Assembly (NCBI RefSeq): GCF_026004075.1
Contig: NZ_BPIK01000001.1
Location: 2,396,041-2,460,040, forward strand
Direction: 5' to 3'
DNA length: 64,000 nt
Source: Meiothermus sp.
Lineage (GTDB): Bacteria; Deinococcota; Deinococci; Deinococcales; Thermaceae
The notes beneath the pieces were generated by a model. The model searched no databases. It was not told the origin of the DNA and saw nothing but the letters and a program-made list of their open reading frames with translations. Positions 1 to 63,235 of the stretch are shown piece by piece. The first letter of the stretch is position 1. Each line of letters begins with the position of its first letter. Made by a program: the position numbers and the translations under genes.

Positions 1-1020
1 CAGGTCAGGGTACATCGGCTGCGGGACGAGGCGGGACGGGAACACAGCTACCGGCTGGATGGGAGCCTGGACGGCAGTGGGTATACCCCCTGGGTGCTGG
101 AGCGGCTGCTGGAGCTGGCTGGCCGACTGCCGTATGAGGAGGCAGCGGAGCTGGGCCGCGCCTTCGGCCTGGAGGTGAGCGCAGCGGGGCTGGCCCGGCT
201 GCATGCGACCTACGGCAAAGCGTTAGAGGAGACGCTCTGTGCCAGCCTGCAGGAGCGGGCCTGGGCGGCTTTGGCCGAGGGGGAGGGACGGGTGATGGTG
301 CTGGAGGTGGATGGGGTGCGGGTAGCGGGACAACCCCATCCCAGCACCCATCGCTGTGAAGGTATCGAGGTCAAAACCGCCCTGGTTTATCCGCAGCGGG
401 CTCCTGGTGCGCGCACCCGTATGGCGGGGGTGATGAAGCCCGAGCAACTGCTGCCCCAGCTCTCGGGGCTGCTGCGGGCGGCGGGGGTACAGAGACAGGA
501 TGAAGTGATTGGGGTCTCAGATGGGGCGGTCTGGATCGAACAGCTCTACCAAACCCTGGGCATCCCCCAGGTGATAGACGTGTTCCATGCCAGTCAGTAT
601 CTCGAACAGGTCATGCTGGAGCTGGGCTGGTCGGAGGAGGAACGGGCGGAGGAACGTAGGCGCTGGCTGAGGGGGGAGGTGGCGGGTGGGGAGTGGCTAG
701 GCACCTACTGCCCACCCCCTACCGCTCCTGAGCGGCAGAGCTGGTCGGAAGAGGCCCGCAGCGCAATCCAGTACCTGGAGCAAAGGGCCGATCGGATGGA
801 CTACCCGGCCTATAAAGCCCGGGGCTGGCCCATCGGTTCAGGCCAGGTGGAGGGGATGAACAAGCATGTTATCGGTGCCCGCATGAAACGCTCGGGGATG
901 CAGTGGAGTCGCCCTGGGGCTTCGCGCACAGCAGCCCACCGCGCCCAGCTATGTAGTTCCCATCCGCTGGTGGCCTTCGAGGCCCTGAGGTGGAGGGCTT
1001 TCCCTGTACGGAATTGCTGA
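1..1020 (+). CDS. ISKra4-like transposase, 5'-partial at window edge
   Basis: The reading frame is open from base 1, so the N-terminus lies outside the window. The visible part has a DDE-type layout: VMVLEVDGVRV, then GVSDGAVWI, then VIDVFHASQYLEQ, and near the C-terminus PIGSGQVEGMNKHVIGARMKRSG. The last stretch is the hallmark of ISKra4-family transposases. It marks the left flank as mobile DNA. The right end of the element probably lies between the stop codon and about base 1040, just before a strong promoter for the next genes. Confidence 0.8.
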   Translation, partial: QVRVHRLRDEAGREHSYRLDGSLDGSGYTPWVLERLLELAGRLPYEEAAELGRAFGLEVSAAGLARLHATYGKALEETLCASLQERAWAALAEGEGRVMVLEVDGVRVAGQPHPSTHRCEGIEVKTALVYPQRAPGARTRMAGVMKPEQLLPQLSGLLRAAGVQRQDEVIGVSDGAVWIEQLYQTLGIPQVIDVFHASQYLEQVMLELGWSEEERAEERRRWLRGEVAGGEWLGTYCPPPTAPERQSWSEEARSAIQYLEQRADRMDYPAYKARGWPIGSGQVEGMNKHVIGARMKRSGMQWSRPGASRTAAHRAQLCSSHPLVAFEALRWRAFPVRNC

Positions 1021-27963: not shown

Positions 27964-28391
27964 CGGGAGATGCTCCAGATCACCACCTGCGCCGTGGAGG
28001 GGTCAACCTCACCCGCCGCCAGGTAGTAGCCGCGCGAAGGGTTCAGGGTATCCACGAAGGACGCCACGAAGATTCCCTCCACCTCGTAGGCAGCAACCAG
28101 GCGCACAGGCGTGGCCGGAAGGCTAAGCGCCCACCCGCTCGCGAGTTGATTGACCAGGGTGTCGCCCTTTCTCCGGGAGAAGCTGTAGCAACCCACATCC
28201 TTTGGCCCCGCGCCCACAAGCTTGACGGCGCGATCCAGCAACCCCTTGCACGCGCCCTCTGCCAGGGGCTTGGCAAAGGGTAGGGGGATGCCCGGCGGGG
28301 CTACATGGAAAGCCCTATCGCTGCTCTGCGCCAGACCCAAACCCGTACCCATTGCCGCGATCACCAGTCCGATCAAAATAGGCTTTCTCAT
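27960..28391 (-). CDS. Exported hypothetical protein
   Basis: 143 residues with a signal peptide (MRKPILIGLVIAAMGTGLGL, Ala-Gln cleavage site). The mature part has two cysteines and beta-rich segments (TPVRLVAAYEVEGIFVASFV). Overlaps both neighbours by four bases. It is probably a periplasmic accessory of the conjugation machine, by position only. Confidence 0.65.
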   Translation of the reverse strand: MRKPILIGLVIAAMGTGLGLAQSSDRAFHVAPPGIPLPFAKPLAEGACKGLLDRAVKLVGAGPKDVGCYSFSRRKGDTLVNQLASGWALSLPATPVRLVAAYEVEGIFVASFVDTLNPSRGYYLAAGEVDPSTAQVVIWSISR

Positions 28392-29701
28392 CTTCCGAAC
28401 AGTCCTCCTTTCTTACCCATTCCAAGATACCGGCTCACCCGCCGCACCCACGACTCCAGCGCCGCGATGCGGCTCTCCGTCGAGCGCCGCATGAGCTCCT
28501 CGGCTTCCTCCAGCCGGTTCTCCACCTCCAGCAGTATCCGCCCCCGCTCCTCGTCCATCCGTGCCCGGAGCTCCCGTATCTCCTTCTTGCCCGGAGGCGC
28601 GGACTTTTCCTCGGAAGAGGAAGCAGGCGCGAGGGTGTCTACCCTATGGCTCACCTTCAGGGCCAGGTCGCGGGCCTCCCGTGCGGCCTCCCGCAACGCC
28701 CGAAGCCCTGGGGCCATCCCCCCCAGCCGGGTCTCGGTGCGGTGCAGGCCCGCCTCCAGCCGGGCCACTGCCCGGCGAAGCTCCTCGACCTCGGCCTCGA
28801 GGCGTCCGATCTTCATCAGCGCCGCCCCCAGGGTCAGGGCCTCCTCGCTCGGCAGGGGGAGGTACGCGGTCCCACCCAACTCCGGTTCCTCGTCCGGTTC
28901 GTCCGTCCGGTGTACGGGGCGTGAACCCCGTCCCACCAGGGGATCGTCCGGCCCCAGGACCTCCGTGAGCTCCCTCGTCCGACCGGCGGCTTCCTCTTCG
29001 GACGCCCGGACGGCCTCGAGGGCCTGCCGCCGTCCGACCGAACGTTCGGGGTCATAGAAGTTCATGGCCGCCCGTATCCGGGCCTCGGCTAGTGCCCCGT
29101 CCGGTTCCTCCCCGAACACCGTCCGGTAAGCCTCCATCCACTTCTTCCGAATACGGTTCTGAGAATCCTCGGAAGAGGAAGTCAGGCTGTCCGCCCGGTC
29201 ATCCGGGCTTGGGGGGGCACTCTTGCCCCCTTGTTCCTGTTCGCCCTCCGGTTCAGGTGGCAAGACGCGCCCGACCTCCACCAGCCGACCCCCCGGCCCC
29301 TCGATCAGGGGATCGGACTCGTGGTCCGGGTTCCAGGGGCGCACCGCCTCCAGCGCTTCCACCCGGCTCCTGGCCTCACCCCGCTCCATCAAGCCCATCG
29401 CCCGGCGCACCCGCGCCTCGAAGAGGCCATCCACCCCCCCAAACACCTTCCGGTACGCCTCCTTCCAGCGTGTCCGGGTCTTGCCGGACAGGGGGGTGTC
29501 CACCCTGTCCTTTGGGGGTGTCCCACCCTGTCCCTCCACCCTGTCCCTACCCTGTCCACCCTGTCCTTCAGGGGTGTCCACGGACAGGACAGGGGGGGTG
29601 TCCAGGGGGTGTCCATCCTGTCCCTCCACCCTGTCCATCACAGGGGGTTCAGCGCCTTTTTCTCTCGCCTGCACGTCTTTTTCGCTATCTTCGCTGGACA
29701 T
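28388..29701 (-). CDS. Hypothetical protein with duplicated helical domain and long C-terminal coiled coil
   Basis: From ATG 29701 it is 437 residues. The N-terminal 90 residues are low-complexity, with repeated DRVEGQ/DTP units. Two related domains follow: RTRWKEAYRKVFGGVDGLFE with ARVRRAMGL, and RKKWMEAYRTVFGEEPDGAL with ARIRAAMNF, separated by about 85 residues. The C-terminal 170 residues form a coiled coil (EAEVEELRRAVARLEAGLHR). No family recognised. It is co-transcribed with the conjugation genes and might be a DNA-bridging or scaffold protein; that is a guess. Confidence 0.65.
   Translation of the reverse strand: MSSEDSEKDVQAREKGAEPPVMDRVEGQDGHPLDTPPVLSVDTPEGQGGQGRDRVEGQGGTPPKDRVDTPLSGKTRTRWKEAYRKVFGGVDGLFEARVRRAMGLMERGEARSRVEALEAVRPWNPDHESDPLIEGPGGRLVEVGRVLPPEPEGEQEQGGKSAPPSPDDRADSLTSSSEDSQNRIRKKWMEAYRTVFGEEPDGALAEARIRAAMNFYDPERSVGRRQALEAVRASEEEAAGRTRELTEVLGPDDPLVGRGSRPVHRTDEPDEEPELGGTAYLPLPSEEALTLGAALMKIGRLEAEVEELRRAVARLEAGLHRTETRLGGMAPGLRALREAAREARDLALKVSHRVDTLAPASSSEEKSAPPGKKEIRELRARMDEERGRILLEVENRLEEAEELMRRSTESRIAALESWVRRVSRYLGMGKKGGLFGR
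29500..29640. repeat. Short tandem repeats of CCACCCTGTCC type
   Basis: The first codons of the gene above contain many copies of TGTCC joined by CACC or CTCC units, forming imperfect tandem repeats of 11-17 bases. Similar GGTGTCC motifs continue upstream at 29809-29880. It encodes the low-complexity N-terminus and may vary in length between strains. Confidence 0.6.
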
Positions 29702-29865
29702 TTTCGACTCACCGCCATCTGTGATTTTTCTCGTCCTCAAGCGGTTTGGACAGGGGGTGTCCGGGGGGTGGGGAAGTCTGTAATACATAGGCACATTTCA
29801 GCAGTTTCGGGTGTCCAGCCCCGACCTGTCCTCCAGGGTGTCCACCCTGACCTGTCCGGGGTGTC

Positions 29866-30261
29866 CTATCGGGACACCCCCCACCAGATTCCAGCCACAT
29901 AGCCCACCACCATCCCGATGATCCAGCCCCACCGTTCGCTCCGGCCAGCGGCCAGGGCCAGCAGTTGCGAGGCCAGCAACAGGCCGACCAGGGTGTACGC
30001 GCTCAGGGTGAGGGCGAGCCCGCCCAGGAACCAGCCCACGCCGATCCCTACCCCAATGAGCATCCTGTCCGGCAGCAACCGCAGGGCGGGCAGCAGGGCC
30101 AGCCCCACGGTCACCGGCAGGGTGGGCGCTTCCATCGCCGCCATCACCACATACCCCAGGTAGACCAGGCCCGCCAGTACCCACAGCGTCCATTCGCTCG
30201 TCCGTACAACCAGGACCGGGACTCGCTTGCCCGCCTCTATCCGCTCCTGTTCCTCCTTCAC
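29866..30261 (-). CDS. Four-span membrane protein
   Basis: From GTG 30261 (GTGA overlap with the upstream stop) it is 131 residues with four hydrophobic helices, for example LWVLAGLVYLGYVVMAAM and WGWIIGMVVGYVAGIWWG. The N-terminal 20 residues are charged and cytoplasmic. No family recognised. About 160 bases separate it from the next gene and contain GGTGTCC repeats. Confidence 0.6.
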   Translation of the reverse strand: MKEEQERIEAGKRVPVLVVRTSEWTLWVLAGLVYLGYVVMAAMEAPTLPVTVGLALLPALRLLPDRMLIGVGIGVGWFLGGLALTLSAYTLVGLLLASQLLALAAGRSERWGWIIGMVVGYVAGIWWGVSR

Positions 30262-53750: not shown

Positions 53751-54033
53751 CCAGGTTGATCATCCCGCTCACGTTCTGTCCCTCCCACCGGCCCGCGACC
53801 CCTACCAGCCGCAACCCTGCGTGGGTATCCGTCAGGAGCCTTGCCCCTTCCAGGAAGCCTACCGTCTGTCCCTCCTGCACCACCGCCACCGGCGGCAGGG
53901 GCTTCCCATCCTCAAACGCCTCGAGCGGAAGCTGCGCTTGCAGCCTGCCCGCCGCCCACTCCTCGGCCTCGGCCCCGCTCATGGGCCGGTCAGGGTACAG
54001 GGTTACCAGCACCACCTTATCCGCAACTTGCAT
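53743..54033 (-). CDS. 96-residue unknown protein, module copy B
   Basis: From ATG 54033 (GAGGAGGAAAGGCA) it reads QVADKVVLVTLYPDRPMSGA and ends GRWEGQNVSGMINLDG. Pattern similarity to the N-terminal part of the 52273 protein and an identical start (MQVA) at 53037 indicate three copies or relics of this gene. No family recognised. Confidence 0.55.
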   Translation of the reverse strand: MQVADKVVLVTLYPDRPMSGAEAEEWAAGRLQAQLPLEAFEDGKPLPPVAVVQEGQTVGFLEGARLLTDTHAGLRLVGVAGRWEGQNVSGMINLDG

Positions 54034-54145
54034 TGCCTTTCCTCCTCCTCTTACCATGATAGGCGAGGGATTGCCTCAGCGTACCTTGAAAGCGTGACCT
54101 TGGAACGGGTTCTCTCCGCAAGACCCGGCCCAGGCACATCGGCAA

Positions 54146-54179
54146 CAGGTCTCTTGTCCAAAAAGACGAAGAGACCCTG
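54146..54179 (+). promoter_or_regulatory. Hairpin in the 5' leader of the 54220 gene
   Basis: CAGG-TCTCTT-GTC (54146-54158) pairs with GAC-AAGAGA-CCTG (54165-54179, with a bulged G and C) around a CAAAAA loop, about 40 bases before the GTG start. The counterpart gene at 51681 also has a hairpin leader, which suggests RNA-level control. Confidence 0.45.
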
Positions 54180-54219
54180 TGCTTGGCGGCCCGGGCCTCT
54201 TCGTCGGAAAGGAAACTGC

Positions 54220-54477
54220 GTGTACAAGGTTACCACGTTCAGGCTGCTCAACGCCAGGGGTGTAAAGGTCATCAGATTTACCGACCTCAGCGACAGCGCT
54301 GGCAGGAAACTGCTGGATCGTGGAGCGATCTTTGACCGCTCCACCGCCGACCTTGCAGAGGAAGTGAGCGTCTCCGCCATCGAGCCGGTAATAGTGGAGG
54401 AACACGAGTTCCTCCCGGGCGATGAGATTCTCATCCCAACCGCTAGAGGTTGGTTTCTAGGCCGAGTAGCTGAGTAG
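54220..54477 (+). CDS. 85-residue protein with structured leader, module copy B
   Basis: Start GTG 54220 after GGAAAGGAAACTGC. The sequence (TFRLLNARGVKVIRFTDLSD, then EEHEFLPGDEILIPTARGWF) looks like a small beta-rich domain. A hairpin leader lies upstream and a GTCCT-family terminator downstream, as for the 51681 gene. No family recognised. Confidence 0.6.
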   Translation: MYKVTTFRLLNARGVKVIRFTDLSDSAGRKLLDRGAIFDRSTADLAEEVSVSAIEPVIVEEHEFLPGDEILIPTARGWFLGRVAE

Positions 54478-54492
54478 CCCTCAGTCCTTCTT

Positions 54493-54532
54493 CTCCTCAG
54501 AGACGATCCTTTTCTCTGGGGGGTTCTTTTTT
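54493..54532 (+). terminator. Rho-independent terminator of the GTCCT-loop family
   Basis: CTCCTCAGAGA (54493-54503) pairs with TCTCTGGGGGG (54513-54523) with several G-U pairs, followed by TTCTTTTTT. The loop contains ATCCT instead of GTCCT. Confidence 0.75.
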
Positions 54533-54551
54533 GCCTGCTCTTACCCCTCCC

Positions 54552-55118
54552 TTACTCCTCAGCATCCACATCCGGGGGCAAGATTTCGCTCAGCGCCCTC
54601 ACCTCCAGCCCCCCCTCCTTCACCATCCGGTCAAACCGCCTGGGGTAGGGGTGGTACACCCGCACCCCCTCGGCCTCTCCCTGCTTCCTGCGGCTGTACC
54701 ATCCCATGCGCTTGAGGGTGTTTCTGAGGCTGCGGGTGCTGTACGCCCGCAAGCTGGCAATCAGCATGAGCCGCTCCCCGTTGCGGCCCATGAAGGCGAT
54801 CCGCCCCCGGGGGTTTCGCCCCACGAAGCGCCAGCCCTCCCGCTCGGCAATCCGAATCGCCCGCCGCAAGAGCACCGCATCCGCCACCGCCGTGGCCCTG
54901 GGGCGGTAGAAGCGGGTCATGGAGAGCACTTCGACCCGCCCCCTGGGGCCCACCACCACCGCCCGGCCAATGACCGTAGGGACTATCACCAGATACTTCC
55001 GCTTGACCAGATCGTAGAAGGTGGCGCGAGGTATTCGCTCAAGCACCTCCTCCACCAGCATCGGCCCTCGTAGGTGGAGACTACAGATGAACCGCCGGTG
55101 CTTCTCGGCCAGACTCAT
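54552..55118 (-). CDS. Winged-helix protein, replication-relaxation-like
   Basis: 188 residues from ATG 55118 (overlapping the upstream stop as ATGA). N-terminal winged-helix pattern (HRRFICSLHLRGPMLVEEVL, then IPRATFYDLVKRKYLVIV) followed by YRPRATAVADAVLLRRAIRI, which resembles Replic_Relax/MobC-type DNA-binding proteins of conjugative elements. The C-terminal half is duplicated at 52017. It may bind the transfer origin; this is inference. Confidence 0.5.
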   Translation of the reverse strand: MSLAEKHRRFICSLHLRGPMLVEEVLERIPRATFYDLVKRKYLVIVPTVIGRAVVVGPRGRVEVLSMTRFYRPRATAVADAVLLRRAIRIAEREGWRFVGRNPRGRIAFMGRNGERLMLIASLRAYSTRSLRNTLKRMGWYSRRKQGEAEGVRVYHPYPRRFDRMVKEGGLEVRALSEILPPDVDAEE

Positions 55119-55933
55119 CGCCCCTCGAGCTCGATCCGCGTACCCGCCATCACCGAGCGCTTGAGGGCGAATTGCCGCCCGCTGCCGATCTCCACCAACC
55201 CCCACTCCAGCCCGATCTCCCCGGCCCGGGCCCCCTCCAGCGTGATGAGGCCCGAAAGGGCCTCACCGGGGTTGACCAGGGTCTTCAGAGGCTCTCGCTT
55301 GAGGCTGTAGGAGAGCCGGTTGCCGCCCTGGGTGATCACCAGCCTTCCGGGGTCCGCCGCCAGCGTGCGGTTTCCCCGGTTCTCCAGGGTGAAGAAGATC
55401 GTCACCGTGCCCTTCCCATCCGAGGGCACCTGGGCGGTGGTGGTAAACCGCACCGCCTCCGGGTTCAGAGGTGCGCTCTGCGGCGGCTGTGCGGCCTGCG
55501 GGGCCGGGCTGCTCGGGGCCGGGCTCGCCGGTGGGACGTAGGCGCTCGCCGGTGCGCTCACGCTGCTGCGCCGGGAAAGCTCGATCACATAGCGCCGGGG
55601 CCCCACCCCCGGCCCGATCTTGAGGGTGAAAAGCAGGGTGCGCCCGGCCACCTCCACCACCAGGTCGGTCTGCCCGGCCTTCTGGGTGGCCGAAACCAGG
55701 ATGCGCGGCCCGGCGCTCTCCACCCGCAGAAGCTCGCCCTTGGCCGAGGCCAGGGTGCTCACCGTGTCCCAGAAGTCCAGCACCGTGGTAAAGCCGGGGC
55801 TGACCTCGATCACCCCCGGAACCCGCGTGAGGTCATCGGCGTAGTAGGTCTTGAGCACCGACTGGCCCATCGCCAGCGGCGTGAGCAGCATGAACACCAG
55901 GGCCAGTTGTTTGCAATAACTTATTACCTTCAT
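55115..55933 (-). CDS. Secreted protein, VirB9/TrbG-like candidate
   Basis: From ATG 55933 it is 272 residues with a signal peptide (MKVISYCKQLALVFMLLTPL, cleavage after AMG). Residues 35-110 are beta-rich (GVIEVSPGFTTVLDFWDTVS, then DLVVEVAGRTLLFTLKIG), as in the N-terminal domain of VirB9. A Pro/Ala linker is followed by a second beta domain (VTIFFTLENRGNRTLAADPG) that resembles an Ig-like fold instead of the VirB9 C-terminal domain. It is the best VirB9 candidate in the window. Confidence 0.5.
   Translation of the reverse strand: MKVISYCKQLALVFMLLTPLAMGQSVLKTYYADDLTRVPGVIEVSPGFTTVLDFWDTVSTLASAKGELLRVESAGPRILVSATQKAGQTDLVVEVAGRTLLFTLKIGPGVGPRRYVIELSRRSSVSAPASAYVPPASPAPSSPAPQAAQPPQSAPLNPEAVRFTTTAQVPSDGKGTVTIFFTLENRGNRTLAADPGRLVITQGGNRLSYSLKREPLKTLVNPGEALSGLITLEGARAGEIGLEWGLVEIGSGRQFALKRSVMAGTRIELEGR
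55913..55928. promoter_or_regulatory. Candidate operator GGTAATANNNTATTGC, copy 3
   Basis: The minus strand reads GGTAATAAGTTATTGC, but it overlaps codons 3-8 of the VirB9-like gene, so an operator role here is uncertain. TATAAT-like ATATAATG lies just upstream. Confidence 0.3.
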
Positions 55934-56055
55934 ACAGGCATTATATGACAACATCCTGTTACCGAGAATGCCAACACACTCTGTCACCAAAAAATGAACC
56001 GCCCGGCCTCCCGGGGCGGCCTCAGCTTGTTGCGACGTTATCTTAGGATCGCCCG

Positions 56056-56304
56056 CTAGAACGGCAGGCCATCCTCCGCTTCCCCAACGAACTCCTGGTG
56101 GGCCTCATCCGCTGCCCGATCCGCCGCCCAGAAAGCCTCGTCAAAGCTGGCGTAGCTTCCGATCACCGTTTCCCTGCCGTCCTCAGCGCGGTGCACCGCC
56201 TGGAAGGTGTGAATATTCGGCTGGCGCACAAACCATTCACCCAGGCCCCGATACGACCGGAACACCTCACGCTCGCCAATCATCCCGTTCAGCTTCAAGA
56301 TCAA
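56056..56304 (-). CDS. Hypothetical 82-residue protein
   Basis: Compact sequence (EVFRSYRGLGEWFVRQPNIH, then VIGSYASFDEAFWAADRAAD) with an acidic end. Overlaps the upstream gene by 38 bases. No family recognised. Last gene of the leftward replication operon. Confidence 0.55.
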   Translation of the reverse strand: MILKLNGMIGEREVFRSYRGLGEWFVRQPNIHTFQAVHRAEDGRETVIGSYASFDEAFWAADRAADEAHQEFVGEAEDGLPF

Positions 56305-56623
56305 GCCCGTCCACCTCCTTATCGCTCACCCCACGCGGTCGGCCCAGCCGCCACACATAGTAGACCCTGGAACCTTCTTGTATTTTCTCGAACTGCACCC
56401 GGCTCTTCAACAGCCGCTCCTCGAACCTGCCCTCGGCCACAAGCTCGTAGAGGGTACGAAAGCCCTCCCGCTCCCGCACCCGCACCTCCCGCCACACCTC
56501 CCCCCCGGCCTCCACGGGCCTCGAGAGGAAAAGCTCGGCATCGTGGCAAGCCCTTACCACGATAGCCCCTGGCGGCATCCTGAGCGAGAGCGCCACGATT
56601 TTAGCCCGAGGACGGATCAGCAT
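56267..56623 (-). CDS. Hypothetical 118-residue protein
   Basis: Alpha/beta sequence (GAIVVRACHDAELFLSRPVE, then REGFRTLYELVAEGRFEERL). No family recognised. Overlaps both neighbours, indicating tight co-translation. Confidence 0.55.
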   Translation of the reverse strand: MLIRPRAKIVALSLRMPPGAIVVRACHDAELFLSRPVEAGGEVWREVRVREREGFRTLYELVAEGRFEERLLKSRVQFEKIQEGSRVYYVWRLGRPRGVSDKEVDGLDLEAERDDWRA

Positions 56624-56957
56624 AGCATTCCTCGGAAAGGGAAACCCCCGGCCCCTTTGGGAATACCCGCACCACCCGCTCCAACCGGTCAGGCCAGACC
56701 CCCAGGATTTCCACCACCCGGGCCTGGGGCCAGCCCGCCTCGAAGCGCTCGAGCAACTCCCGCAACCAACCCTCCAGGCTGCACTGCGGCATCCCCGGAA
56801 ACCGGGCGTGGGCCTCCAGGTCGGCCTCCTCCGGCACCAGCAGCGCCCAGTAGACCACCTCCCCGTCCACCAACCACCGCAGCCTGCGACACCCCAGCCC
56901 CTTTAGCTTCGCCGTTACCTCCGGCACCATCCGTAGCAGCACCCCCCAAGGACTCAT
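56601..56957 (-). CDS. Hypothetical 118-residue protein
   Basis: Sequence MSPWGVLLRMVPEVTAKLKG, then RWLVDGEVVYWALLVPEEAD, then LEGWLRELLERFEAGWPQAR. No family recognised. Lies directly downstream of the GTTGGGA repeat region. Confidence 0.55.
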   Translation of the reverse strand: MSPWGVLLRMVPEVTAKLKGLGCRRLRWLVDGEVVYWALLVPEEADLEAHARFPGMPQCSLEGWLRELLERFEAGWPQARVVEILGVWPDRLERVVRVFPKGPGVSLSEECYADPSSG

Positions 56958-56964
56958 CGCACCC

Positions 56965-57401
56965 TCCGTTCAGAACTCCCAACACTCCCAACACCTCTTC
57001 CCGCCGAACCGCCCTTTCCACTTCCTGAACAGCATTTTCCCACCATCTGCCGATGTAGGGCCAGTCCTCCCCCCACCTCCCACTTCATCAGCCTTTTTTC
57101 CCATGCTGGACGTGATTCCGGTGCGTTGGGAGAAAATCGCCGTTTTTGCCTCTGCAAGCGGCCCCTTTTCCCAACGCTTTTTCGTCGTCCAGCACGCAAA
57201 TCCATCAACCTGTTGGGACTGTTGGGACTCCTGGCGATAGGACACCCCACTAGAGTTCCACCTCATACGCCCCCACCTCCCCCTCGCCGTTGGGACAAAC
57301 TGAACTCCCAACAGCCGGTTTTCTCCCAACGTCTTTTGTGTCGTCCAGGACAGTATTTTGCCCCATGTTGGGACTGTTGGGAGTTTTGGCGAGGACACCC
57401 C
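56965..57401. repeat. GTTGGGA iteron-like repeats, possible origin region
   Basis: At least ten copies of GTTGGGA or its complement occur in about 430 bases: doublets at 57211-57228 and 57366-57383 (TGTTGGGACTGTTGGGA), a doublet TCCCAACACTCCCAACA near 56970, and singles near 57124, 57165, 57285, 57308 and 57325. The two doublets sit in an imperfect direct repeat of about 36 bases, and GTCGTCCAG is also repeated. Half of the region is the 3' end of the DUF927-like gene; the 290 bases to the left have no gene. Location next to replication genes suggests an oriV or oriT. Confidence 0.6.
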
Positions 57402-59193
57402 CTGGAATTTGCACCACGTCACGGGTCGTGCCCTGAATCCGCACCCCCACCCCGTAGCGCACCCGCCCACCCCGCTGTTGCGAGCGGATCACCCCCCGCT
57501 CGCCCAACCGCTTCCACAGGGTGCGGGGGGTAGGAAGCGGCTCCCCGCTCTCCACCGCCAGACGGTTCAGCGCGGCGTAGGCGGCGGTGGGTTCCAGGTA
57601 TATGCCCTGGGCATCCACCCAGCCCACCAGCGGCCCCTGGGGCACCCACCCGTCCGCCCGGGCCTGCCAGCCCCACCGCTCGGGTTCGGCAGGGGGGGTC
57701 TGGGCGTCATGGCGGTTGCCCAGGTGGGCCCGCCCGCTGCTCAGGAGCCCCAGCACCAGCGGGATGAAGCGCTCCACCGGGTTCATGTCGCTCTGGTAGC
57801 CCTGCTGCGCCTCCCCCACCTCATGCAGGACGGCCTCCACCTCCCGCGTGAACCGCTCCGCCTCCGCCGGGGAGATGACGCCCACCTCGAGCCAGTAAGC
57901 CCGCACGATCTCCCACACTGCCTGAAGCCGGGCCAGGGCGTCGGTGGTGCGTCCGTGGGCGGCTGGATAGCATGAGCGCAGCTCGCCGGTGCGAAGCCGC
58001 ACCTGCTGCCGCACCCCCTCCAGCCGCCCGGCCAGCCAGCGCACCCAGGCGGCCAGGGCCAGGGGAAACCCCGCCGCCTGGTTTTGCAGCCGGGTGAGCG
58101 CCTCCAGGTTCACCTCGCCCGGGGTTAGCTCGAGGATCAGGCACCGCGCCCGCACGCTGTGGCCGGGGGGCAGATCCTCGCCGGTGACCAGCAGGCTGCC
58201 CCGGGGGGCCCGGTCGGGCTGCATCCGTCCGTCCGAGCGCATCCGCGCCCGCCCCGTGGCGTTGCCCTGGTTGCGCAGAATCCGGGCGGCCTTACCCTGG
58301 AGCTCCTTCTGCTTGCCCTCATGTCCGGTGGGGGCGTAGTCGTCAATCAGCAGCAGGGCATCCTTGGCCGCGAAGGCCAGGGCCTCCAGGGCGTTCGCCG
58401 TGCCCTCCCAGTTCGTCGGCGGGTGCGGGGCAGTGTGCCCCCACAACGCCTGCACCAGCAGGGCCAGGCTGGTCTTGCGGGCCCCGGTCAGCCCGGCAAC
58501 GTACAGGCTGCCCAGCGGGTGGTTGATGGGTGCTCCCAGGGCATAGAGCAAAAGGGGCCAGGTGACCCGCCGGGGGCCTGCCTCCAGCATTGCCAGCAGC
58601 CGCCGGTGCGCCTCCGGTTCGGCCTCGCCGGTGGGCGGTTGGGGCAGGGCGAAGCCGCTCAGTTCGGGGGGGAGATCCACCTCGAGGCCCTCCACGCTGC
58701 CCTCCGGCCCGATGCCGCCCCCGGCGTGCAGGTACACCCAATCCCCGCCCTGCCGAACCCAGCCGGTGTGGGCGTAGACCGTGGCCTGCTCAGGGGTGCT
58801 CAGGTGTTGGATGGCGGCGCGAAGATGGTCTTTGACCCCATGTCCCGGCGTCACGATGGCCCGGGCCCCCCACTCCCGCACCGGCCAGTGCATCGCAGCA
58901 AACTCGCTCGAGCGCACCCGGGCGGACGGAAGGGGGCCGGCTGCGGTGGAGCCCTCGAGCTCGAACAGCAGCTCGTCCTGCACCCCATCCGTGTAGCGCA
59001 CCTCCCGCCGGATGCGACAGGCAAAGTTGCAAAGCGGCACGTAGACAACAGTCCGATGCTCACCCCGCCCTTCCAGCCGGGCCATCTCAATGCGCCCTTG
59101 CTGGATGCGGTAGCGGGGATGGCCGGGCAGAACCTCCTCAAGCTCTACCGGGCTTATAAAGTCTTGATGTACGGGTGGTATACTCTTGACCAT
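57250..59193 (-). CDS. DUF927-like ATPase/helicase
   Basis: From ATG 59193 (AAAGGAG then TTCTGT) it is 647 residues. Central ATPase: LYVAGLTGARKTSLALLVQA (variant Walker A) at about residue 235 and ALLLIDDYAPTGHEGKQKEL (Walker B) at about 280, then LLVTGEDLPPGHSVRARCLI. This matches the DUF927 helicase-like proteins of mobile elements that work beside a DnaG-like primase. The last 40 codons are written in the GTTGGGA repeats and have odd composition. Confidence 0.75.
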   Translation of the reverse strand: MVKSIPPVHQDFISPVELEEVLPGHPRYRIQQGRIEMARLEGRGEHRTVVYVPLCNFACRIRREVRYTDGVQDELLFELEGSTAAGPLPSARVRSSEFAAMHWPVREWGARAIVTPGHGVKDHLRAAIQHLSTPEQATVYAHTGWVRQGGDWVYLHAGGGIGPEGSVEGLEVDLPPELSGFALPQPPTGEAEPEAHRRLLAMLEAGPRRVTWPLLLYALGAPINHPLGSLYVAGLTGARKTSLALLVQALWGHTAPHPPTNWEGTANALEALAFAAKDALLLIDDYAPTGHEGKQKELQGKAARILRNQGNATGRARMRSDGRMQPDRAPRGSLLVTGEDLPPGHSVRARCLILELTPGEVNLEALTRLQNQAAGFPLALAAWVRWLAGRLEGVRQQVRLRTGELRSCYPAAHGRTTDALARLQAVWEIVRAYWLEVGVISPAEAERFTREVEAVLHEVGEAQQGYQSDMNPVERFIPLVLGLLSSGRAHLGNRHDAQTPPAEPERWGWQARADGWVPQGPLVGWVDAQGIYLEPTAAYAALNRLAVESGEPLPTPRTLWKRLGERGVIRSQQRGGRVRYGVGVRIQGTTRDVVQIPGGVLAKTPNSPNMGQNTVLDDTKDVGRKPAVGSSVCPNGEGEVGAYEVEL

Positions 59194-59237
59194 ACAGAAC
59201 TCCTTTGCATCCCACCTGGCGGGGTGGGGTGTATTTT

Positions 59238-60176
59238 TTATTCCTGCAACAGTTGCCCGGCCAAACCCTGCTGCCCCCACCGGGCGGCGTATTCACAGGC
59301 GTCGAGTCCGCCCTCCAGGGGTTCCAGGACAAACATCGCAACCTTCACGGCCTCCCCTTCCTCCTTCCAGCGCCCTATCGCCCTGCGCCCGCCAGGGTCT
59401 CCGTCGGCATAGAGGTAGACCCGGCGGCCTGTCAGGCCCTCCCAGGGCACCCGGCCCTCCACGCCGGGAATGCCCAGCAGGTCGGCCCGACCCTCCAGGG
59501 CAAACCAACTGGTGATGGCGTTGAGCTCCCCCTCCATCACGATCACGGGTCGGCCTGCATCCTGCCCGAAACCGGGGGAGTACCAGGCGGGCGCCCCTCG
59601 CTCGGGGGTCAGGTAGCGGTAGCGGAAACCCTCCCTGGGCTCGCGCAGCCTGGCCTTGATGGCCTGCACCTCCCCGGTGGGCCCCAGGATGGGGATCACC
59701 AGGTCGCCCTGACGGCTCTTGCCCAACCCCACCTGTCGGGCCTGCTCGAGGGTGATGCCCCGTCCGCGTATGGCCTCCTCGTCGAGGCGCTGCTGGGCCG
59801 CCTCGAGGGCCCTCTTCTCCGCCGGGGTAAGGCCCCGAACGGGGCGCAGGCTTGCGCGGTGTTTGATGCTGGCCTCATGGGCCACAGTCTCACCGCTACC
59901 TGCCCGGTTCTTGAGCAACTCCGCTGCTGCATCCTTGCTCATCCCCGCCTTGAGAAGCAGGTGAAAGGCGTTTCCGCTCTCCCCGCTGCCATGGTCCTTC
60001 CAGAACCACATCCCCCGTGCCTGGAATAGCGAAAGCGAGGGGTGCGTGTCGCCTCGCCACACCGCCCGGCATACCCCGGCTCGCCCCGGCCTGGCCCCCG
60101 ACTCCGGCCAGAGTTCGCACACCAGTGCAGGCAGGTCAACCCTCTCGATGGAGCGCGTCAGGGCGTCCTTCGTCAT
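59238..60176 (-). CDS. Toprim-domain primase (DnaG-like)
   Basis: 312 residues from ATG 60176 (GGAGGAAG six bases upstream). A CHC2-like N-terminal part (GDTHPSLSLFQARGMWFWKD) lacks the full zinc-binding cysteine set. The Toprim domain has VIVMEGELNAITSW with the catalytic Glu and VYLYADGDPGGRRAI with the DxD. It probably makes primers for element replication together with the adjacent ATPase. Confidence 0.85.
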   Translation of the reverse strand: MTKDALTRSIERVDLPALVCELWPESGARPGRAGVCRAVWRGDTHPSLSLFQARGMWFWKDHGSGESGNAFHLLLKAGMSKDAAAELLKNRAGSGETVAHEASIKHRASLRPVRGLTPAEKRALEAAQQRLDEEAIRGRGITLEQARQVGLGKSRQGDLVIPILGPTGEVQAIKARLREPREGFRYRYLTPERGAPAWYSPGFGQDAGRPVIVMEGELNAITSWFALEGRADLLGIPGVEGRVPWEGLTGRRVYLYADGDPGGRRAIGRWKEEGEAVKVAMFVLEPLEGGLDACEYAARWGQQGLAGQLLQE

Positions 60177-60983: not shown

Positions 60984-61700
60984 ATGCCTAAGAAAAGCTT
61001 CCGTACTGCCTCCCTTACCCCTGAGAACGTCACACCTGACTGGGGACGACTATTGCAGTCCAGGCGAGAAAAGCTGGGCCTCTCTCGTGAGGCGTTGGCC
61101 CTGGCTGCTGGTGTATCTCCTTCCCTGATCGCCAAACTCGAGCAGGGCAATCACGACCTCAGGGACGTGAGCGTGGGCCGTTTGCACGCGTTGTTGCGCA
61201 CGCTTCACCTCCCCTCCATAGACTTTTTGTTGGGGGAGGGCCCGACCGAGGAGTTCACCCCTTCCGCCCCCGGCATCACCCCGCTGCCCTACTACTCATC
61301 GCTGACCCTGGCCTGTGCTGGGGAGGAAGCGTCCACGCGCAGCCATTTCGACACCCGATTGCTTCCCACCCGGCCCAGCTACACCAACTTCTTCCTGGCC
61401 ATACTGGAGCAGGACGTACTTCGATCTGAGGATCTCAGCCTGGTCGAGGGCTCGGTGCTGGTGGTGGAGCGGAAACCCGCCCGGGAGAGAGGCATCGCCC
61501 TGCTCGGTTTCGTCGAGGAAATCCGACGACCCCTGCTGTACCGCCTACCCCCGGAGCCCCGGCTGGTGCGGCCAGTCAGCGGGATGGGGGCGGTGTACTG
61601 GCTCCTGCCGGACGGCTCTCTCCAGCCCCCCTCCGGTAAGAAAGCCGCTATGTACCCTGTCCCGGTGGGTGTCATCCACGGGGAGTTCCGTCACGTATGA
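60984..61700 (+). CDS. HTH repressor with C-terminal S24-like domain (CI-like)
   Basis: 238 residues. HTH: LLQSRREKLGLSREALALAA followed by GVSPSLIAKLEQGNHDLRD. The C-terminal 100 residues (LEQDVLRSEDLSLVEGSVLV, then GIALLGFVEEIRRPLLYRLP) resemble the beta-rich LexA/CI (S24) domain, but I do not see a convincing Ser-Lys pair, so self-cleavage is unproven. Its stop overlaps the recombinase start, linking repression and excision. Confidence 0.75.
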   Translation: MPKKSFRTASLTPENVTPDWGRLLQSRREKLGLSREALALAAGVSPSLIAKLEQGNHDLRDVSVGRLHALLRTLHLPSIDFLLGEGPTEEFTPSAPGITPLPYYSSLTLACAGEEASTRSHFDTRLLPTRPSYTNFFLAILEQDVLRSEDLSLVEGSVLVVERKPARERGIALLGFVEEIRRPLLYRLPPEPRLVRPVSGMGAVYWLLPDGSLQPPSGKKAAMYPVPVGVIHGEFRHV

Positions 61701-63235
61701 AGCTTTGCGCTCTCTATACCCGTGTTTCCACCGAGGAGCAGGTCGAGCGCTACTCCCTCGAGGCTCAGCAGGAGGTGCTCACGCGCTGGGCCGAAGCTCT
61801 GGGGTATGAGGTGGTCAAAACCTACACCGACCCCGGCTACTCAGGAGCCCAGGAGGATCGGCCTGCCCTGACCCGCCTGCTCGCGGATGCTCAGGAGAAG
61901 CGTTTTATGGTGGTGCTGGTCTATCGCCTTGACCGCCTGGCCCGCAAGGTGCGCCTGGCCTACGACCTCATCGAGCGGCTGGAGCGGTGTGGGGTGGGAC
62001 TCATGAGCTACTCCGAGCCGAATATCAACACCACCACCCCCATCGGCAAGGCGGTGCTGGGGATCATGGCCGTCTTCGCTGAGTGGGAGCGCGACACCTT
62101 TGCCGAACGCAGCCGCCTGGGCATGCACAAAGCTGCCCGGATGGGAAAGTACCTCGGTGGCATCGTGCCCTATGGCTACACCGTCGAAGACGGTCGCCTG
62201 GCTCCTTTGCCCGAGGAGGCGGCGGTGGTGCAGCAGATGTTTGCCTGGGTGGCCGAACGGGGCTGGAGCACCGAGCGGGTAGCCCAGGAACTCAATCGAC
62301 TGGGAATCCCCCCCAAGTACCGTCGAGACGGTCGAGGGGTACGTGGTAAGCGCACTGCCGGAGTCTGGCGCGGTGGTGGGGTACTGAGAATCCTCAAGAA
62401 CCGCACCTATATTGGCGAGTACACCTATGGTAAGCGCACCACCAAACCCCAGCCAGAGTTGGTGAAGGTGGCAGTGCCTCCCATCGTGGAACCTACCCTT
62501 TTCGAAGCTGTACAGGAGCAGCTAACCCGTAACGCTCTCTTCGCTACCCGCAACGCGAGGAGCGTGTACCTGCTAAAGGGGCTTATCCGCTGCGGGATGT
62601 GCGGGCGCGCTTACGTCGGATCAGCCGACTACTACGCGTGCGTGGGGCGAACCAACCGTCAGGCGTCTCCCATTCCTGAGATGAGATGTACCGCTCCGCA
62701 CGTGCGCAGGGCAGACCTGGAAGAGAGGATCTGGCACGACATCCGCTCCTTCCTGCTCAACCCTGGCGAGGCCTTGCAGGCTTTCATAAATGAGGAGTCC
62801 CCGGAAAGCCATGAAGTCTCCCTGCTGGAAAGACGCTTGCAGGCCCTCTTCGAAGCCCGGGCCCGCCTGCTGGATCTTTATCTGGAGGGAGGGGTGGAAA
62901 AGGAAACCTACTACGCCCGCCTCGAAGATCTGGACGCCCGCGTCCGGGAAGTCCAGGCGAGCGTGGAAACAGCCCGGCAGCGCTCCATCGCCGAGCGCCA
63001 GCGCAAGGAAGCCCTCCACTCCCTGGAGAGCCTCTCGGCCCGCCTGCGTGATCGGATAGACCGCCTTACCCCGGAAGAGAAGCAAGCCGTGGCACGAGAG
63101 CTGGTGGAGGGAGTAACCGTGCGGCCCGGAAAGGGAGAGGTCGAGGTTGAGGTGCGTTACCGGTTCGGGCAGATTGCACCTCACACGGGCAGGGGTTCAT
63201 GGCCGCAATCAGCAAAAACCGCGCAGGATAGGTGA
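61697..63235 (+). CDS. Large serine recombinase (ICE integrase)
   Basis: 512 residues. Resolvase domain: [20 protein letters not shown] (catalytic Ser11), [12 protein letters not shown] and [16 protein letters not shown]. Recombinase domain from about residue 155 ([14 protein letters not shown]). Zinc ribbon [13 protein letters not shown] near residue 298 with a later Cys pair (YACVGRT, MRCTAPH). Coiled coil at about 375-455. The final 20 or so codons (after FGQIAPHTG) overlap the comM junction, so the C-terminus differs between integrated and excised forms. Its ATG overlaps the CI-like stop (ATGA). Confidence 0.95.
63175..63202. other. Attachment site (right junction with comM)
   Basis: On the minus strand, comM reads normally through codons for IAAMNPCPC (to 63183) and then departs from the family, which continues with Gly-Tyr. 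The crossover should therefore lie within or next to CACACGGGCAGGGGTTCATG (63182-63200 region). This also forms the end of the recombinase gene. Confidence 0.65.

Follow-up and report, generated by a model that had tools for sequence, protein, structure and literature searches.

The window analysed here, a stretch of 64,000 nucleotides (G000:C1:2396041-2460040), is part of an ICE of ~100 kb, whose limits were placed at ~G000:C1:2359062-2459236 by comparison with the copy in Meiothermus luteus. The DNA of the window has its nearest named relatives in M. luteus (L050) and Calidithermus chliarophilus (L051) and encodes a T4CP, a VirB4-like ATPase, a serine recombinase, and a protein that weakly matches Replic_Relax; it very probably derives from Meiothermus, the genome with the M. 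luteus copy (G008) being of the same genus. The ICE has genes for conjugation and is not claimed to be a PICI. The copy in M. luteus (G008) is represented by a contig with a joined att site and a 127-bp terminal overlap; the overlap indicates that the contig is probably circular, which points to a circle and not to replication. One segment of the window (~12.0-25.8 kb) is 99.6% identical in M. luteus, 99.8% in G001, and 98.9% in the part of G002 that was compared, whereas most other backbone blocks in these genomes are only ~76-90% identical; judged from these identities, the segment is recently spread cargo.

The right part of the ICE contains a DUF927-type helicase gene, a putative primase gene, and the integration module (Table 1). 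The PF06048 match of the helicase is barely above the gathering score (24.4 vs 22.6 bits). The C-terminal region of the protein (residues 557-626) comprises conserved helices, followed by a stretch (residues 598-626) that co-varies with the repeat word described below. Several otherwise different helicases, including those of the window (57250-57280), L118, L117, L154, and L156, end in a short acidic peptide (e.g. EEGGDWEVVL) that follows the array-encoded linker and is perhaps a docking motif for a host replication protein.

Table 1. Features at the right end of the ICE (window positions;., no strand assigned).
Feature	Position	Strand	Basis or remark
118-aa protein directly beyond array a	56601..56957	-	blastp homologues in 10/13 loci
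Third doublet, inverted	56973..56993	-	TGTTGGGAGTGTTGGGAGTTC on - strand; words 56977/56986
Array a, 11 words	56977..57382	both	gene-strand TCCCAAC (>) / GTTGGGA (<)
Second, less perfect copy of the GTCCAGGAC element, GTCCAGCAC	57187..57195	.	repeat search
27-nt repeat, copy 1	57211..57237	+	doublet TGTTGGGACTGTTGGGA then ...TGGCGA
Half-array sites 4-5 (offsets 70, 87)	57289..57312	.	inverted pair GTTGGGA-N10-TCCCAAC
Half-array sites 1-3 (offsets 0, 9, 52), common to 13 loci	57324..57382	.	offset comparison
Palindrome GTCCAGGAC in the 36-bp gap of the half-array	57343..57351	.	repeat search
27-nt repeat, copy 2, same doublet element	57366..57392	+	155 bp beyond copy 1
DUF927-type helicase, 676 aa, proposed initiator	57250..59280	-	PF06048, E 2.8e-5
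Helicase C-terminal tail, array-encoded (residues 627-676)	57250..57402	-	ends ...GEVGAYEVEL
Helicase winged-helix-like C-terminal region (residues 557-626)	57403..57612	-	comparison and structure prediction
Putative separate DNA primase, 319 aa	59238..60197	-	phrog_47, E 7e-15
HTH regulator (HTH_31/HTH_3), ICE backbone	60984..61700	+	domain match
Large serine recombinase	61697..63235	+	domain match; right end of ICE at ~63196, within the last codons of the ORF

The 3' end of the helicase gene is occupied by an array of short repeats (array a). Exact copies of GTTGGGA occur 15 times in the window when both strands are counted, and 11 of them fall between 56977 and 57382 (- strand: 56977, 56986, 57169, 57306, and 57324; + strand: 57125, 57212, 57221, 57289, 57367, and 57376). 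This agrees with the initial annotation, which had reported ten or more copies clustered at the end of a replication ATPase gene and partly translated as the C-terminus of the enzyme: five copies are traversed by the helicase ORF, six lie beyond its stop, and the last 50 residues of the protein are encoded by the array. The copies form three doublets with 9-bp spacing plus five singles, distributed over both strands. The two doublets that had been described as parts of a longer direct repeat are indeed present in two 27-nt copies (89% alike), but the total of two has to be raised to three. Along the strand of the helicase gene, the sites follow the order >><<>>><><< with offsets of 0, 9, 52, 70, 87, 155, 164, 207, 251, 390, and 399. 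The doublet GTTGGGANNGTTGGGA is found six times in the 3.25-Mb genome, three times in array a and three times at G000:C1:2373615-2373725 (array b, see below).

Chance or composition is ruled out as the source of the array by dinucleotide and Markov shuffles. The dinucleotide shuffle predicts 9.8 copies of GTTGGGA per window, equivalent to ~0.06 per 406 bp (Poisson P(>=11) ~1e-21), and the largest cluster of any 7-mer per 406 bp in 200 order-3 Markov shuffles of positions 54000-60000 comprises 6 copies, compared with the 11 observed. The window contains one 7-mer that is even denser (CCTGTCC, 12 per 406 bp near 29.5 kb). It belongs to a separate word array of the ICE backbone, unrelated to GTTGGGA, which is placed at 29486-29880 and counts 14 copies of CCTGTCC and 10 of GGTGTCC in a stretch of 1.2 kb, at the 5' end of an ORF (28388-29794, - strand) whose sole Pfam match is a sub-threshold leucine-zipper model. 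The same words occur at the matching place in all six ICE backbones, including that of the window (11-15 and 5-16 copies, respectively; raw counts), and are present also where the helicase of the ICE or its word differs. This array is a candidate for an oriT or a centromere.

A protein search of 50 genomes of the family yielded 13 near-full-length helicase loci in 11 genomes, encoding 12 distinct proteins. The gene of G018 was counted despite containing a stop, and G000 and G009 were entered separately although their helicases are 100% identical. A match of 45 residues in G004 and another fragment in G018 were left out. Each of the 13 loci has 7-11 copies of one 7-mer per 300 bp at the 3' end of the helicase gene, while the largest clusters in eight Markov shuffles of each locus comprise 4-6 copies. 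Relatives that share the replication genes and lack the repeats, which the initial annotation had named as evidence against an origin, are thus absent from this set.

The spacing of the sites is conserved in all loci, whereas the words change. Offsets 0, 9, 52, and 70 with the orientation >><< are common to all 13 loci, and a fifth site (>) follows at 83-87. In five loci, the sites form an exact dyad (0, 9, 52, 70, 84/85, 123/124, 138, 156, 199, 208) despite differing words; a sixth locus (G018) conforms save for one stray copy, and G030 and G006 deviate. A mirrored second half (< >> <<) is present in eight loci (G013, G006, G002:C16, the second element of G009, G030, G018, G001 at 1.58 Mb, and G049), which therefore possess two iteron sets in the form of two opposed half-arrays; the array of the window consists of one shared half-array and a second part that is arranged differently. 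The word is TCCCAAC (GTTGGGA) in G000, G009, G008, and G003; TCCCTAC (GTAGGGA) at nine sites of G002:C4, where two further sites are still TCCCAAC; CGGGAAC (GTTCCCG; word B) in G013, G002:C16, and G030; CGGTAAC (GTTACCG; word C) in G006, the second element of G009, and G049; and TGGGAAC (GTTCCCA; word D) in G018 and G001. All gene-strand words except TCCCTAC end in AAC, with the other half being variable. A palindrome resembling GTCCAGGAC was matched in 12 of the 13 loci (not in G030), and a stretch resembling TATCGCCAAAAC stands before the first doublet in the loci inspected.

In 9 of the 13 loci, namely the eight mirrored ones (with one stray copy outside in G018) and G003, the array lies within the helicase ORF; it straddles the stop in G000, G008, and G002:C4, and likewise in G009, which has the same gene end and offsets as G000. 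Whole arrays have an AT content of 0.40-0.48, compared with 0.28-0.37 in the preceding 1 kb (ten loci measured), but the central gap between the half-arrays (0.26-0.42 in eight loci) is not AT-rich. Two simple patterns detected no DnaA box at 55.5-58.5 kb, and a search of plasmid DNA with the array as query gave no match. The composition of the gap and the lack of a detectable DnaA box both count against an origin. The initial interpretation of the repeats as an iteron origin is nevertheless strengthened by the presence of arrays at all 13 helicase gene ends, by the fixed geometry with changing words, and by the occurrence of a different word beside a different helicase (see below). Array a is very probably the replication origin (oriV) of the ICE, of the kind found in SaPIs and PICIs, and would be bound by the predicted C-terminal winged helix of the helicase.

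A second array within the ICE (array b; G000:C1:2373615-2373726, L009:13616-13726) comprises six GTTGGGA words and is separated from array a by 79 kb in the integrated form and by ~10 kb on the M. luteus contig. Its flanking elements resemble those of array a, and it is situated upstream of a gene with weak C-terminal wHTH matches and, judged by eye, membrane helices in the N-terminal half. Among five genomes (G000, G009, G003, G001, and G016, with G001 and G016 being identical in this region and G008 excluded for its other spacing), none of the 42 word columns is variable, compared with 43 of the 91 columns outside the words. All six words are intact in the four genomes with GTTGGGA helicases and also in G001 and G016, whereas the array has decayed in G002 (3/6 words) and G006 (2/6); seven homologues of the neighbouring gene in the genus g4 (probably Thermus) have no such array. 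Array b may be a distant binding site for the initiator, may act as an operator, or may be recognised by a different reader. Because a protein search found no GTTGGGA-class helicase in G001 and G016, something else may read GTTGGGA in these genomes. It is nonetheless unlikely that the words in general are read by another protein of the ICE or the host, such as the 118-aa protein or the membrane protein with the wHTH, and that the helicase is recruited only indirectly: the 118-aa family is present in only 10 of the 13 loci, and co-variation with the word is seen in the helicase, the protein that was examined for it.

The helicase is the only protein cluster represented in all 13 loci, and the next most frequent clusters occur in 10 and 9 (the stretch of G049 is only 5.3 kb long). 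This also makes it quite improbable that the array serves as an operator at which a repressor or activator controls the genes following the helicase, an arrangement that would suit the position of the window array ahead of 118-aa genes and that of array b directly upstream of the wHTH membrane-protein gene. Operators do not usually comprise ten sites arranged as a base-exact dyad across ~215 bp, and nine of the 13 arrays are located inside the coding sequence of the helicase. The array may regulate in addition to being an origin.

Evidence against an oriT comes from the gene content of the loci. The initial annotation had offered an oriT with repeated binding sites as an alternative, and many oriTs are flanked by multiple binding sites. 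Binding sites for a relaxosome protein would also fit an element that looks conjugative. However, the relaxase candidate and the Replic_Relax-type ORF (48.5-50.8 kb) are more than 6 kb away from array a, and all eight of the other loci have the array without a homologue of the relaxase candidate, the T4CP, or VirB4 of the ICE in the 20-kb stretch inspected (5.3 kb for one locus). Homologues of its primase, HTH regulator, and serine recombinase were not found in the same stretches either; a third protein cluster occurs near seven of the eight loci, and its four scanned members are tyrosine integrases (PF00589). Conversely, an ICE in G001 (465-565 kb) shares many aligned blocks with that of the window, spread from its left end as far as the serine recombinase, and has kept the backbone (VirB4 89%, serine recombinase 95%, T4CP 81%), but no DUF927 helicase was detected in it at E 1e-8. 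The place of the helicase is occupied by a primase-D5 fusion (D5_N, DUF5906), and instead of the GTTGGGA array there are nine copies of ATGTAGG at 492753-493005, beginning ~270 bp past the stop of the fusion (shuffle maximum 5; 0/100 shuffles as high). In this ICE, both the word and the helicase are different, whereas the conjugation genes are retained. An oriT is rejected as very improbable, since arrays are present where conjugation genes are not found and accompany the helicase.

Least credible is selection of the repeats for the repetitive C-terminal peptide (TPN/TGN/SGN) that they encode, since the words lie on both strands and use all three codon phases across loci, 6 of the 11 words of the window are past the stop, and the words of array b are invariant outside the helicase gene, which outweighs the reading of the first doublet as TPNSPN, TGNTGN, or SGNSGN, the acidic C-terminal peptide common to several relatives, and the in-line GTTGGGA tandems of the unrelated phage contigs L219 and L239.

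The design of an array next to a putative initiator gene is, on the evidence of further loci, wider than the DUF927 helicases and recurs beside other primase-helicase genes of the bacterial family. A profile search of 111 genomes of the phylum revealed PrimPol domains in long frames (775-935 aa) at seven further loci, and each of these loci has an array (7-14 copies) that exceeds every one of 100 shuffles. The words are TACCGCA, CTCCGGA, AATGTCA (three loci), ACCCGCA, and CACTGAC, and the array is inside the ORF in G021, G000, G017:C33, and G007 and after the stop in G002:C1, G017:C6, and G004. Among shorter PrimPol frames, 12 of the 24 matches were scanned and 7 of these 12 exceed all shuffles; at several loci the words are within the last part of the long ORF after PrimPol, and at L167 they extend across its stop. 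L169 is borderline (2/100 shuffles as high), and four loci with a separate PrimPol gene (L172, L173, L175, and L179, the last of which ends at the contig end) have no array by comparison with shuffles. A comparable 3' array is absent also from five homologous actinobacterial plasmid loci and one viral contig; in this set, repeats occur elsewhere at L165 (eight GTGGTGA on the 5' side), L161 (seven CTCCGGC in 97 bp within the gene, with denser simple repeats before the gene), and L164 (six GCTCCCC before the gene). The four loci with a separate PrimPol gene, the borderline case, and the five plasmid loci count against the array as an origin. In IMG/VR, one query recovered a single distant relative (L153), which has no array, and a second query recovered no relatives; the doublet pattern matched 53 contigs, only two of which have >4 words per 400 bp, both as in-line tandems.

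The genome of the window contains four loci with such arrays, two of which share the word CGTGCAC (L166, G000:C1:2500500-2506593, where the helicase frame looks split into two ORFs; and L167, 1534500-1541500). A strict rule of one word per cell is therefore not supported; the other coexisting loci examined (in G009, G002, G017, and G001) have differing words. In a g4 genome in which no homologue of the DUF927 helicase was found, three CGGGAAC doublets occur within 2.5 kb (L123, G029:C1:912000-931999), and a 300-bp scan detected no dense array there.

The part of the helicase that goes with the word appears to lie behind the presumed recognition helix. The motif (P/E)RTLWKRL in this helix is the same in all 12 sequences save for the first residue, although the words differ. 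In residues 597-626, by contrast, pairs with the same word are more alike than their core identity predicts, and only 1 of 20,000 label shuffles, which ignore relatedness apart from the regression on core identity, gave a value as high; the excess is absent from the helices at 557-597 (p 0.70). The sharpest case is the pair G013 and G006, whose words differ and whose helicases share 86% identity in the core and 37% in residues 597-626. There are also contrary pairs: G002:C16 (word B) is 70% identical in this stretch to G018 (word D) and 63% identical to the second helicase of G009 (word C). The words require six changes on the core tree (shuffled mean 7.6; as low in 13/200) and five on the tree of residues 597-626, and words B and C are rejected as clades on the core tree (p-AU 9e-31 and 2e-60, respectively). 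The six changes and the rejection of both clades indicate that words have switched repeatedly. Words B and C are told apart by one column, residue 612, which is G, A, R, or V depending on the class of word; as two of nine alternative ways of grouping these six sequences likewise yielded one separating column in the region, this residue alone is only a lead, and the link at the residue level rests on 12 sequences.

The AlphaFold models of this region are weak and, like the outcome of the fold search, count against an origin bound by the helicase. Runs on three sequences had low confidence (mean pLDDT 54.6 and 32.2 given); both models place a pair of helices and a hairpin of two strands at 564-611, again with low confidence. 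None of the PDB chains in a fold search matched at E <= 0.001; several top-ranked chains below significance are ORC/Cdc6 origin-recognition or initiator proteins, and many others are DNA-binding regulators. At the sequence level, significant PDB matches were confined to the PrimPol portion of the alignment. Whether the helicase gene ends in a specificity cassette that can be swapped, in which the post-helix stretch, the coding tail, and about ten words move and change together, is close to an even question, with the balance slightly against it; a recombination tract could also carry the gene end and the array together without residues 597-626 being the determinant. If there is such a cassette, an element could adopt a new origin language in one recombination event while the spacing scaffold (0, 9, 52, 70, ...) and the dyad stay fixed, many related integrative elements could share one bacterium with little cross-talk, and the pieces would be separable enough for learning the recognition code (e.g. 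at residue 612).

Among known replication systems, classical iteron plasmids (RepE/Pi type) have long direct iterons of 17-22 bp. They are rejected as a model because array a consists of 7-bp words on both strands, with no DnaA box by the two patterns and no Rep_3 hit among the proteins scanned. The alpha protein of phage P4 is a primase-helicase whose C-terminal wHTH binds short repeats, and there is more than one repeat site (ori1/crr). The ICE resembles P4 in the predicted C-terminal wHTH, the short repeats, and the presence of more than one repeat site per element, and differs from it in having a DUF927 instead of a D5 helicase and a separate primase. The available text of PMC4234260 states that the winged helix of P4 alpha binds the origin repeats; it also describes the origin of pRN1 directly 3' of the gene for ORF904, a primase-helicase with a C-terminal wHTH, which is similar in position to array a but is a 100-nt stem-loop without iterons. 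The origin of phage lambda has iterons inside the initiator gene, according to the accessible part of PMC4488673. There are four of them, each 19 bp long, and they are recognised by the N-terminal half of O, a protein that recruits a helicase. The arrays described here, by contrast, place about ten words of 7 bp, in both orientations, at the 3' end of the gene for the helicase itself.

The closest counterparts are the rep-ori modules of SaPIs and PICIs and those of SCCmec elements. As far as the available sections of PMC7581432 go, SaPI Rep helicases recognise iterons directly downstream of rep via a C-terminal domain, and the DUF927 protein Cch is related to the Rep of SaPIbov1; together with PMC6092414, available in part, they describe origins with self-loading initiator helicases of the DUF927 or D5 type and two iteron sets around an AT-rich stretch. 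Compared with these partial descriptions, the shared features are a helicase of the DUF927 type (SaPIbov1 Rep/Cch) or D5 type (SaPI5 Rep/Cch2), a C-terminal DNA-binding domain (here predicted), short iterons at the 3' end of rep, and, in eight loci, two iteron sets. The differences are that the arrays reside on an ICE and on other integrase-bearing elements, that the iterons lie mostly inside the rep gene with base-exact spacing across words and no AT-rich centre, and that the ICE has the additional array b. The rep-ori class is already known; the concerted word changes on a base-exact spacing and the embedding of the array in coding sequence set the present arrays apart from it. No earlier report of these arrays was found in the open-access literature, as far as its accessible text goes, and a search of that literature for iterons within coding regions gave nothing. 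The protein families themselves are the same as in Ppol-Hel of Thermus ICETh2 and in the PrimPol-DUF927 fusions of 970-1000 aa already reported for Meiothermus in the available part of PMC7693054, which does not mention iterons or a replication origin and has no occurrence of the word 'repeats' in its main text. In the same part of that paper, deletion of the primase did not lower the copy number of excised ICETh2, which counts against the array as an origin, and a Hel mutant gave limited induction of the circular form.

If array a is the origin of the ICE, the excised element would be a circle on which the DUF927 helicase encoded beside the array acts as both initiator and replicative helicase. 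Its C-terminal winged helix would bind the 7-bp words (GTTGGGA in the window), with the stretch after the recognition helix setting the variable part of the word. The fixed spacing would place several helicase subunits in two opposed groups, from which two opposed rings might self-load and unwind the DNA at the array, and the neighbouring putative primase would prime replication that starts there. The iterons, often located in the last part of the helicase gene, would at the same time be translated as a linker before the short, often acidic C-terminal peptide.

It is a long-standing question in the biology of plasmids and satellites how an initiator and its roughly ten binding sites can shift to a new specificity in step, and the helicase loci provide a natural series of five words on one fixed scaffold. 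Because one pair of helicases is nearly identical except where the word differs, both the code and the route of switching are directly testable. For the ICEs of Meiothermus and its relatives, and for their other integrative elements, the accessible text of the papers mentions no origin; the arrays supply candidates and would extend a PICI-like origin layout to a conjugative element.
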